Assembly: GCA_005881895.1 (NCBI GenBank)
Contig: VBCG01000055.1
Span: 56,485-109,115 of the forward strand
Direction: 5' to 3'
Length of the DNA stretch: 52,631 bases
From: Betaproteobacteria bacterium
GTDB lineage: Bacteria > Pseudomonadota > Gammaproteobacteria > Burkholderiales > Casimicrobiaceae
The translations under genes were made by a program, and so were the position numbers. Under the pieces are notes generated by a model. The model saw nothing but the letters and a program-made list of their open reading frames with translations. It did no database searches and was not told the DNA's origin. Positions 6,832 through 45,035 of this stretch are shown here, piece after piece. The first letter of the stretch is position 1; every line of letters starts with the position of its first letter.

Positions 6832-6921
6832 ATTCGCGCCGCAGGGCCGTCCCAAGGCGCGAATTACGCCCCCTCTGGAGGCAGAGGGCAGTGCGTAGCG
6901 GCGAAGCCGCAAGCGTGGGGG
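6832..6921 (-). repeat. Dispersed ~85-bp intergenic repeat, copy 1 (canonical sense on - strand)
   Basis: + strand attcgcgccgcagggccgtcccaaggcgcgaattacgccccctctggaggcagagggcagtgcgtagcggcgaagccgcaagcgtggggg; matches copies at 8566, 9197, 18820 and 44953. Confidence 0.85.
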
Positions 6922-6927
6922 TTTATT

Positions 6928-7971
6928 TTACGCGGCGAAGCGGATTGCGTCGTCGCCGGCGATCAAGCGCGTGATGCGGCCGGCGTGCCACAAATGGTTG
7001 AGATGGGCAATCGCCTCGCCCATGGCGAAGAACCGCTGCTGCATGTCCAGCGGCCGTCGAAACAGCACGGGTATCACATCGGCGGCGGATTGAGGCGCTT
7101 GCGCAGCAGCGACTGCGGCGGCGAGCTCGTTCAGGCGCACGGCGTGATGTGCGCGCAACTGTGCGACGCGAAGCGCGATGCCGCGAAACGGCAGGCCGTG
7201 CGACGGCAACACGAGCGTGTGTGGCGGCAATGTTTCGAACGCTGTAAGCGAGTCCAAGAATCGCGCCAAAGGGTCGCCGTCGGGCTCGACCGGCCAAACG
7301 GCGACGTTGGTCGTGATCTTCGGCAGCAGCATGTCGCCCGACACAAGAACGCCCATGCTCTCGGCGTACAGGGCCGCGTGCTCCGGCGAATGGCCGAAGC
7401 CCGCGATGACCTGCCACGTCGTTCCTCCGGCTTCGAAGCGATCGCCGGCGATCAGGCGCTGGAAGCGGGTCGGCGCTTCCGGGACGCCGCGCTTGTATTG
7501 GTTGCCTCTCGCCGCGAGTGCTGCGAAATGCTCGTCGGTCATGCCATGACGTCGGAACAGCGCGCAGGTATCGGTTACCGCATGCGTCGCACGTTGATCG
7601 ATGATTGCATGGGCCGCCAAATACTCGGATTCGGTCATCGCGACCGGCGAGCCGAAGCGATCGGACAGCCACTTCGCGTTGCCCAGATGATCGGGGTGGC
7701 AATGCGTTGCGACGATGCGGGCTATCGGTTCACCGTGAAGCGTCGTGTCGAAATGGCGCGCCCACAGTTCGCGCGTCGGCGCGTCGCCGTAGCCGCAATC
7801 GATTTGCGTGAAGCCGTGTGTTTCCCGCAGCGACCAGATGTTGATGTGATCGAGCGCAAAGGGCAGCGGCATCCGCAGCCACAGAATATTCGGCGCGACC
7901 TCGCGAACCTCTCCCGGCGGCGGCTGCATCTCGAACGGGTAATCGAGAACGGTGCCCTGCGGTGCGTTCAT
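6928..7971 (-). CDS. MBL-fold metallo-hydrolase
   Basis: THCHPDHLGNAKWLSDRFG (HxHxDH-type), GFGHSPEHAALYAESMGVLVSGDMLLPKITTNV. Confidence 0.88.
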   Translation of the reverse strand: MNAPQGTVLDYPFEMQPPPGEVREVAPNILWLRMPLPFALDHINIWSLRETHGFTQIDCGYGDAPTRELWARHFDTTLHGEPIARIVATHCHPDHLGNAKWLSDRFGSPVAMTESEYLAAHAIIDQRATHAVTDTCALFRRHGMTDEHFAALAARGNQYKRGVPEAPTRFQRLIAGDRFEAGGTTWQVIAGFGHSPEHAALYAESMGVLVSGDMLLPKITTNVAVWPVEPDGDPLARFLDSLTAFETLPPHTLVLPSHGLPFRGIALRVAQLRAHHAVRLNELAAAVAAAQAPQSAADVIPVLFRRPLDMQQRFFAMGEAIAHLNHLWHAGRITRLIAGDDAIRFAA

Positions 7972-8026
7972 CGAGCATTCATCCGAACTGAAAGACGGTA
8001 TGGTATCTTGGGTCGATCGCTCATCA

Positions 8027-8050
8027 CGGAACGTTCGCGATCGCGTTCCG
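8027..8050. promoter_or_regulatory. Inverted repeat cggaacg-N10-cgttccg in divergent MBL hydrolase / liuR promoter region
   Basis: Perfect 7-bp arms, about 10 bp upstream of the liuR ATG at 8060. Confidence 0.35.
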
Positions 8051-8059
8051 GTTGCCATC

Positions 8060-8557
8060 ATGCCAACGAGCCGCCGTTCCGCTGCGCCCGATACATCGGG
8101 GCGCGGCGCAACGTTTTCAATTTCGGATCTCGCGCGAGAATTTGCGCTGACGACGCGCGCGATCCGCTTCTACGAAGACTGCGGGCTCGTCACGCCGCGT
8201 CGCAACGGGCGCGCCCGCATTTACGGCGAGCGCGAGCGCGTGCGGATCAAATTGATCCTGCGCGGAAAGCGCCTCGGGCTCGCCTTGGCGGAGATCCGAG
8301 AGCTGCTCGACCTGTACGAGGTTGCGCGCAACGAACGAGCGCAGATCTCCAAATTTCTCGCGTTGCTTGCCGACCGTCGTGCGCGGCTCTTGCAACAAAA
8401 GGAAGACATCGACGCGGTGCTCGCTGAAATCGATGGCATCGAGCGCGATTGTCGCCGAAGGCTCAAAGAAGAGGAACCGGGAAACCGCGACGGCGCCACC
8501 AAAAGCGCGCCCCGTGGCGCAGGCCTTCGCCGTGGTCCCCGCCTCGGAGGTGTCTGA
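8060..8557 (+). CDS. liuR: MerR-family transcriptional regulator, LiuR-type
   Basis: FSISDLAREFALTTRAIRFYEDCGLVTPRRNGRARIYGERERVRIKLILRGKRLGLALAEIRELLDLY; located at the head of the leucine/isovalerate catabolic genes. Confidence 0.85.
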   Translation: MPTSRRSAAPDTSGRGATFSISDLAREFALTTRAIRFYEDCGLVTPRRNGRARIYGERERVRIKLILRGKRLGLALAEIRELLDLYEVARNERAQISKFLALLADRRARLLQQKEDIDAVLAEIDGIERDCRRRLKEEEPGNRDGATKSAPRGAGLRRGPRLGGV

Positions 8558-43264: not shown

Positions 43265-43422
43265 GGCGTAAGACGATACCAAAATCCATCTTGGCGCGCG
43301 GAAATTCGTCTCGCGCAGCGACGTGTTCGCGCAGCGGGCGCAAGCGCGAGGCGGCGCATCCGGTTCGGGTACAATCGCCGCTTTCGAGTTCGCGGCAACT
43401 GACTCAAGTGAAACTCCCGCCC

Positions 43423-44331
43423 ATGCCGATCGATGCGGTCAACGCGAACGTGAAGGCACAGATTCTCGCCGAGGCGCTGCCGTACATACGGCGCTTCCAC
43501 GATCGAACGATTGTGATCAAGTACGGTGGCAACGCAATGACCGAGACGCAACTCAAGGCTGGATTCGCACGCGATGTCGTGATGCTGAAGTTGGTCGGGA
43601 TGAATCCGGTGATCGTCCACGGTGGCGGACCGCAAATCGGCGAGATGCTTGCGAAGATGGGCATCGAAAGCGAATTCCGCCAAGGGATGCGCGTCACCGA
43701 CGAGCGCGTGATGAACGTCGTCGAGATGGTGCTGGGCGAGCTCAACCAGGAAATCGTCGGGCTCATCAATCAGCAAGGCGGCAAGGCGGTCGGTCTCACC
43801 GGTCAGGACGGCGCGTTCATTCGGGCGCGCAAGATGATGCTGAAGAGCGCGGACGACAACGGAGCGCTGGTGGACATCGGCCTCGTCGGCGATATCGAGC
43901 GGATCGACCCGGAGTTGATCAACCTGCTCGATTCGCGTGACTTCATCCCCGTCATTGCGCCGATCGGAGTCGGCAGCGAAGGCGAGGCGTACAACATCAA
44001 CGCCGACCTCGTGGCCGGCAAGCTCGCGGAAACGCTCAAGGCGGAGAAGCTCGTGCTGATGACGAATACGAGCGGCGTGCTCGATCGCAATGGCAAGCTG
44101 CTGACCGGCCTCACTGCGACCGAGATTGAAGGCTTGTTCGCCGACGGCACGATTCACGGCGGTATGCTGCCCAAGATCGGTTCCGCGCTCGACGCCGTCA
44201 AGAACGGAGTCAAAAGCTCGCATGTAATCGATGGACGCGTCGAGCACGCCCTTCTGCTCGAGGTGCTGACGAACGAAGGCGTTGGCACGATGATCCGCGC
44301 CGACGGTGCGCCGCCGCGAATCGGCGCGTAA
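43423..44331 (+). CDS. argB: Acetylglutamate kinase
   Basis: [80 protein letters not shown]…GTMI. Confidence 0.97.
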
Positions 44332-44376
44332 GCTCGACACGATTCTTGCCGGCGCGACCCTTTCGCGCGATCGAAC

Positions 44377-44946
44377 ATGGCGATGAAACCCGGCGAACGG
44401 CGAGACCAGATCCTGCAGACGCTCGCGGCGATGCTCCAGCACCCGCGTTGCGAAAAAGTGACGACGGCCGCACTGGCGGCGCGTCTTGACGTGTCGGAAG
44501 CGGCGCTTTATCGCCACTTCGCGAGCAAGGCGCAAATGTTCGAAGGTCTGATCGAGTTCATCGAATCGACGCTGTTTTCGCTCGTCAACAAGATCAACGC
44601 CGACACGCAGGACGGCGTCGCCCAAGCGGAGCAGACGGTGGTGATGCTGCTGTCCTTCGCCGAAAAGAATCCCGGAATGACGCGTGTGCTGATCGGCGAT
44701 GCGCTGGTGCACGAGGATGAACGGCTGCAAGCGCGGATCAATCAGCTGACGGACAAGCTCGAGGCCGCGCTGCGCCAGTCGTTGCGAATCGCGCAGGCCG
44801 CGAACGGCTGGCACGGCGATGCCAACGCGGACGCCGCGGTACTGATCTCGTATGTCATCGGGCGGTGGCAGCTTTTTGCGAAGACCGGATTCAAGCGTGT
44901 GCCGCAGGAAAGCTGGGACCTGCAACGCAAGTTCCTCTTCGGCTAG
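44377..44946 (+). CDS. slmA: Nucleoid occlusion factor SlmA (TetR-like)
   Basis: MKPGERRDQILQTLAAMLQHPRCEKVTTAALAARLDVSEAALYRHFASKAQMFEGLIEFIESTLFSLVNKI. Confidence 0.93.
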   Translation: MAMKPGERRDQILQTLAAMLQHPRCEKVTTAALAARLDVSEAALYRHFASKAQMFEGLIEFIESTLFSLVNKINADTQDGVAQAEQTVVMLLSFAEKNPGMTRVLIGDALVHEDERLQARINQLTDKLEAALRQSLRIAQAANGWHGDANADAAVLISYVIGRWQLFAKTGFKRVPQESWDLQRKFLFG

Positions 44947-44952
44947 ACATGG

Positions 44953-45035
44953 ACCCCCACGCTCGCGGCTGTCGCCGCTACGCTCTGCCCTTTGCCCCAG
45001 AGGGGGAGCCCCCGCGCCTTGGCCCGACGGCGCGA
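44953..45035 (+). repeat. Dispersed ~85-bp intergenic repeat, copy 5
   Basis: acccccacgctcgcggctgtcgccgctacgctctgccctttgccccagagggggagcccccgcgccttggcccgacggcgcgaag. Confidence 0.85.

Follow-up and report, generated by a model that had tools for sequence, protein, structure and literature searches.

Five copies of an ~85-bp hairpin-forming repeat lie in the 52,631-nt stretch analysed here (the window), which belongs to contig C214 of the 4.29-Mb draft genome of a betaproteobacterium of the Casimicrobiaceae. The repeat forms a new subfamily, present in high copy number, of a family spread across Betaproteobacteria; in length, G+C, taxa, arrays and position, the features compared, this family closely matches the Beta-proteobacterial repeat element (BRE; Hot et al. 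2011). Many of its copies carry an open frame that leads from the stop codon of the upstream gene to the start codon of the downstream gene, and others are read in frame inside proteins. Both features were missed by an earlier note on this DNA, and the bridging-frame property is previously unreported in the literature searched. The best explanation as a whole, to which we give slightly better than even chances, is that a BRE-superfamily repeat is kept in operons when translation can cross the copy.

Open frames across gene junctions

We scored a junction as bridged or fused when a start codon at the upstream stop opened a frame through the repeat that either ended at the downstream start or fused in frame. 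Gene calls were made with our own caller on the draft genome, of which about 30% was examined, part of it selected for carrying copies. Among co-directional junctions of 55–200 nt, 23 of the 41 holding a copy were bridged or fused; among the controls, the figure was 20 of 227 (p = 4e-11). For bridging taken by itself, the counts were 14/41 copy junctions and 11/227 controls (p = 6e-7); this figure matters because the masking of repeats during gene calling may enlarge the fused class artificially. When the comparison was confined to junctions with a start codon at the stop of the upstream gene, bridging or fusion was seen for 18 of 29 copies, against 20 of 84 controls (p = 4e-4). Swapping the cores among same-orientation junctions lowered the count from 18 to 12.3 ± 1.9 (p = 0.002). 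The copies are thus individually fitted to the reading frame of the sequence on either side of them.

Thirty-three copies whose end reads ATGA were followed by a coding frame: 15 ran in frame into the gene, 13 ended 8–12 nt beyond the repeat, as a rule in overlap with the start codon of the next gene, 4 stopped early and 1 did otherwise. Bridging or fusion was also seen in 21 of 33 evaluable co-directional contexts from other Burkholderiales, a count that stands without a matched control. In Azoarcus KH32C, the annotated stop of a kinase gene and start of a methylesterase gene frame the peptide MKRPPRSLRSLPPEGASAPLGAALREAGP and its stop codon. The sequence GTGGGGGTCC before the downstream ATG paired with the anti-Shine-Dalgarno at −9.6 kcal/mol, which is moderate (−18.4 for a strong site, −6.0 for a weak one).

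A covariance model built from 43 copies recovered exactly five copies in the window (E = 8e-17 to 8e-9; the next window match had E = 0.036), with lengths of 83–91 bp and a G+C content of 0.69–0.77. Their positions agreed with those in the earlier note to within a few bases, by alignment and by the covariance model, and the alignment bore out the shared order of motifs. The copies and the frames through them, each a predicted open reading frame (ORF), are as follows.

6832..6921, minus strand: copy 1, junction of an MBL-fold gene and phaC, both on the minus strand; GAAT end, 9-bp third stem
8566..8648, plus strand: copy 2, junction of the MerR-type gene liuR and a 4HBT thioesterase gene; short third-hairpin subfamily
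8557..8673, plus strand: frame through copy 2, MMGHPRLRLRRYALPLPPEGEHPCLGPAARILAQLTFT and stop; its ATG and the liuR stop share one base (TGATG)
9197..9287, plus strand: copy 3, junction of the thioesterase gene and liuA; GAAT end, 9-bp third stem
9189..9308, plus strand: mini-ORF bridging copy 3, 39 codons, MNDPHACGC...ERTC and stop; the thioesterase stop and its ATG share one base (TGATG)
18815..18905, minus strand: copy 4, junction of liuC and a DUF4126 gene, both on the plus strand; TCAT/ATGA end type, repeat reversed with respect to transcription
18815..18913, plus strand: mini-ORF bridging copy 4, MSAAGPSQGENYSPSGGRGHSVAATAASVGVH and stop; from TGATG at the liuC stop to TGATG at the DUF4126 start
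44954..45037, plus strand: copy 5, junction of an slmA-like TetR gene and a gene starting with GTG at 45056; short third-hairpin subfamily
44949..45059, plus strand: mini-ORF bridging copy 5, 36 codons; ATG two bases past the TAG stop of slmA

The closing TGA of the copy 3 mini-ORF lies inside ATGCTGA at the liuA start, and the terminal TGA of the copy 5 mini-ORF overlaps the GTG at which the following gene begins (GTGA). The frame through copy 2 ends 3' of the repeat, short of the thioesterase start. A bridging start codon and frame were looked for at the MBL–phaC junction of copy 1, and none was found. Empty liuC–DUF4126 sites in relatives are mostly short (−7 to 25 nt).

ATGA and TGATG overlaps are known coupling signals that support termination–reinitiation (PMC6728339). 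In the mechanism that we propose, the repeat would be a high-copy, non-autonomous, hairpin-forming member of a BRE subfamily, inserting mainly at gene junctions, often flush with the stop codon and often at such stop–start overlaps. A copy would be tolerated and kept where the translation of the operon stays unbroken, for which two routes can be envisaged. A mini-ORF may run from the upstream stop to the downstream start, with the terminating ribosome re-initiating, crossing the repeat and re-initiating on the next gene. Otherwise, the repeat may become an in-frame part of the gene that follows or encloses it. On this view the bridging frames would be translated, and coupling, or the avoidance of transcriptional polarity, may be the trait kept by selection. 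The kept feature seems to be the open frame rather than its peptide product. The hairpins may serve the copying and spread of the repeat itself or have an RNA role.

Several points weigh against this mechanism. About half of the co-directional copies, copy 1 included, have no bridging frame, and at roughly a quarter of the copy junctions the genes converge or diverge, so that coupling has no bearing there. The ~70% G+C of the repeat is by itself enough to keep two of its three frames open in either orientation. Variation at the three codon positions of the ATGA copies was 0.059, 0.102 and 0.108, which carries no signature of peptide-level selection. To these we add the possible inflation of the fused class, which the bridging-only test avoids, and the uncontrolled order-wide count.

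Copies within and at the ends of proteins

Two conserved proteins have the repeat as an in-frame insertion within their predicted chain: an aminotransferase (C183:6192; TRG/insert/VLIASPSNPTG) and MutY (C123:1593; LPWQ/insert/TRDPYR). Orthologues of both in the genus are without the insert, TRG-VLIASPSNPTG and LPWQ-TRDPYR being contiguous. The mutY gene holds two in-frame copies (C123:1593-1827), before and after the first ~22 residues. By reading frame alone, two further proteins hold the repeat at similar internal positions: a MASE1-like sensor kinase (C112) and an ATP-grasp-like protein that matched no Pfam family (C87).

Other frames begin inside or just before the repeat and lead into RmlA, MurB, prephenate dehydrogenase, CoA-transferase III, cytidylate kinase (Cmk) and a thioesterase. 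The homology to solved MurB and Cmk begins directly after the repeat. At C218:51113-54215, the nearby core genes for prephenate dehydrogenase and cytidylate kinase both seem to start translation inside a copy. In Paraburkholderia largidicola (AP028202), succinate dehydrogenase assembly factor 2 is annotated from an ATG that belongs to a repeat copy, and the frame continues into what is likely to be the native start; this is probably a mis-annotated start or a fusion.

Placement, structure and spread of the family

Copies butt against genes, often flush with the stop codon. A repeat oriented like copy 4 starts with ATGAGCGCC, whose ATG can open a frame and whose TGA often doubles as the stop codon of the preceding gene. 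Copy 4 has TCAT at its right end, which reads ATGA on the other strand; this is not damage and proved to be the commonest end type (38 of 72 full copies are ATGA/GTGA). Genome-wide, 30 co-directional copies have the orientation of copy 4 and 18 the opposite one, so the observation that four of five copies share one orientation relative to transcription holds in the window only. ATGA ends follow the orientation, splitting 26/4 in that of copy 4 and 3/15 in the opposite one (Fisher p = 2e-6). The restriction to junctions between co-directional genes is likewise true of the window, and it is due to chance: 49 of 65 copy-holding junctions (75%) are co-directional, as are 919 of all 1218 junctions (75%), and at this background rate five out of five is expected with P = 0.24.

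The ends of the copies are not inverted repeats of each other in the alignment. Direct repeats in the flanks showed a slight excess (p = 0.003) with no fixed length, a weak signal that does not favour the fixed target-site duplication of a MITE.

The three stem-loops had been drawn correctly, including the perfect 9-bp third stem of copies 1 and 3, and strong covariation backs them. In alignment A2, 91.0% of the cells pair, against 84.0% in shuffles. The test for compensatory substitutions suggested in the earlier note gave changes on both sides in 13 of 22 pairs (6.3 expected) and 51 double-changed cells (11.6 expected). None of 500 shuffles reached the observed value on any measure, and the signal was lost on sliding. 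Hairpin 3 is the clearest, with double changes at all nine pairs; in other genomes its arms are wholly different yet palindromic, TGTCAGCACC/GGTGCTGACA and GTTAGCCTCC/GGAGGCTAAC among them. Hairpin 2 (CCCCC/GGGGG) is nearly invariant and holds little covariation information, and hairpin 1 (GCGGC/GCCGC) is the mark of this subfamily. Folding energies of single copies were only mildly unusual (z from −2.1 to 0.07) and uninformative.

The search for further copies in the genome and its relatives, also proposed earlier, was productive. A blastn-type search yielded 47 copies, with 132 candidates listed, and nhmmer found 83 copies in 1.296 Mb of this genome. Extrapolation from 22 copies in 469 kb, a sample of long contigs and contigs taken by number only, gives ~200 copies per genome. 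Copies stand singly or in tandem arrays of 2–4 (C172, C183, C66, C26 and C200). Related copies, mostly of 71–83% identity, occur in most genomes of the genus and several of the family. When 300 genomes of the order were scanned with the covariance model, 27 matched at E < 1e-6, covering at least 11 Burkholderiales families; the 27 are a lower bound, with 15 candidates scored per genome and a heavy G+C-rich background. A query from a relative matched named Azoarcus, Paraburkholderia, Burkholderia, Acidovorax and Variovorax replicons, to which the window copy gave no match. Plasmids gave no match to a window copy used as query or to a peptide search, and no copies appeared at the liuA loci of named genomes among the matches listed, which are not the nearest relatives.

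Degenerate arms had been read as ageing; they mostly reflect subfamilies. The short third hairpin of copies 2 and 5 (CACCC-GCGCCTTGGCCC) recurs at C214:29468, C26:23028, C26:29492, C39:17885 and C94:35862. In another subfamily, the loop of the first hairpin is 12–13 nt longer and holds ATTGGCCAAT-like palindromes (GCGGCCTCATTGGCCAATTCGGCCGC). We also observed a second structured repeat of ~118 bp (GTGACGCGAGCAGCCGGCGAGGGGCCCCGC...GCGGGGATCGACGGC...), in the hairpin-1 loop of, or beside, partial 85-bp copies. Apparent long forms are this ~118-bp repeat, inserted or adjoining, and bear no transposase; a longer autonomous parent with the same ends was rejected. The positions are as follows.

C94:32782, C94:50736, C25:3294, C41:5040, C141, C185 and C79:18877: long-loop subfamily
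C94:41252-41367, C39:63586-63704, C218:15808-15926, C26:46177-46295 and L186:18264-18382: ~118-bp repeat

The products of the genes that flank the window copies are Lactamase_B (MBL), PhaC, MerR (LiuR), the 4HBT thioesterase, an enoyl-CoA hydratase (LiuC), DUF4126 and an SlmA-like TetR. The neighbours named earlier were confirmed, except that the gene 3' of slmA (GTG at 45056), given as hypothetical, matched no Pfam family; its N-terminus resembles a signal peptide.

Alternative explanations and relation to known systems

The family is dispersed, structured and REP-like or mobile-looking, as the earlier note held; stem covariation, tandem amplification and a location within transcription units or at their ends all agree with this. 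The copies might then be purely selfish REP/MITE-like DNA at stop codons, with the bridging frames a by-product of insertion at ATGA/TGATG and of the few stops in GC-rich sequence. Tandem amplification and dispersal, the random occurrence over junction classes and the lack of codon-position constraint fit this account, and GTAG REPs, too, directly adjoin stop codons and provide stops (PMC3733652). It does not predict the excess of bridging and fused frames over the core-swapped expectation (p = 0.002) and over matched junctions, nor the recurrence of bridging in other families with different frames and arms. We regard it as a serious contender that is nevertheless unlikely to be the full account.

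Rather less probable is an operon RNA element, whose hairpins would stabilise the upstream mRNA, insulate or tune re-initiation, or attenuate read-through. The strong covariation speaks for such an element, as does the position directly after stops, where ribosome termination structures act (PMC7518266), and the small RNAs bprJ1/J2 of B. pertussis come from a BRE-bearing region (PMC3110155). Against it, both orientations occur (30 vs 18) and the structures differ between the strands; copies also lie in convergent and divergent spacers and inside ORFs; and the Rfam covariance models gave no match to the repeat. No T-run directly follows a GC hairpin in the five window copies, read on both strands, so these are not classical terminators and the intrinsic terminator was ruled out.

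Mobilisation as a REP family by a REP-associated tyrosine transposase (RAYT) is very unlikely. The repeat is palindromic, short and high-copy, and GTAG stands beside hairpin 1 in some copies; in alignment A2, GTAG is present in only part of the copies and the CGTC tag is absent. No mobilising enzyme was found; none of 14 RAYT loci of the genus has a copy within 1.5 kb, and the repeat does not qualify as a RAYT-linked REP. The only RAYT-like transposase gene of this genome is flanked by another repeat, with the motif AGGGTCAGACTCC, which also stands beside the RAYTs of two relatives. Because the same motif adjoins RAYT-like genes, this inverted repeat looks like the true RAYT-linked repeat of the genome. 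Inverted repeats with AGGGTCAGACTCC and AGGGTCAGAG motifs also occur in the window, at 24338-24403 and 40845-40922.

That the repeat encodes a conserved functional small protein is scarcely credible: similar peptides recur (MSAAGPSQGANYSPSGG...; MKRPPRSLRSLPPEGA...), but the frames use both strands and several reading frames of the repeat, the peptide matched no protein family, and peptide-level selection was ruled out by the lack of a third-position excess.

As for known repeats, BREs are ~90 bp long (75–91) with ~69% G+C, values that the window copies fit. They occur in Betaproteobacteria including Azoarcus and Acidovorax, both matched here, and form tandem arrays; most are intergenic with a few bases of ORF overlap, and some lie inside coding sequences (PMC3110155). 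Their authors proposed no function (PMC3110155). The published numbers are 1–29 copies per genome, as compared with ~200 here, and covariation, bridging mini-ORFs and the link between orientation and end type are not described there (PMC3110155). The GCGGC/GCCGC first hairpin further distinguishes the present subfamily. Bor-1 of Bordetella (Cozzuto et al. 2008), compared by description only, is 93–117 bp long, structured and intergenic, with 128–196 copies (PMC2267715), and is possibly the same thing as BRE.

GTAG/CGTC REPs resemble our repeat in lying between co-directional and convergent ORFs, near 3' ends, in supplying stops with their termini and in being intragenic at times (PMC3733652). 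However, they are single palindromes of 20–40 bp with a GTAG/CGTC tag and often a RAYT (PMC3733652), whereas the repeat described here spans ~85 bp with three hairpins and lacks both a conserved tag and a neighbouring RAYT. Rickettsia palindromic elements (RPE), as cited in PMC3733652, are palindromes inserted in frame in protein-coding genes, and the in-frame insertions in the aminotransferase and MutY, lacking in genus orthologues, are of this kind. Compared at the level of that citation, without RPE sequences, our repeat differs in that most copies are intergenic and the intragenic ones use different frames. Termination–reinitiation coupling employs the same ATGA/TGATG overlaps as the bridging copies (PMC6728339). 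Its known cases are ordinary gene pairs; the literature searched contained no dispersed repeat that acts as a bridging mini-ORF.

Returning to the retention of copies that translation can cross, we put forward a general form of it with more reserve, at somewhat less than even chances. BRE-type repeats may be translation-bridging insertions, of which selection keeps the copies that let ribosomes terminate, start anew within the repeat and then again on the following gene; they would spread without breaking coupling and occasionally provide conserved enzymes with new N-termini or internal segments. The bridging-frame pattern makes the role and survival of BREs in operons directly testable, and it shows a way for a GC-rich palindrome to spread through tightly packed operons. 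Such repeats can cause misplaced starts and spurious small or extended proteins in the output of gene callers in Burkholderiales. Some conserved enzymes, namely MutY, MurB, Cmk and the aminotransferase, seem to have been reshaped by such copies, as is known from Rickettsia.

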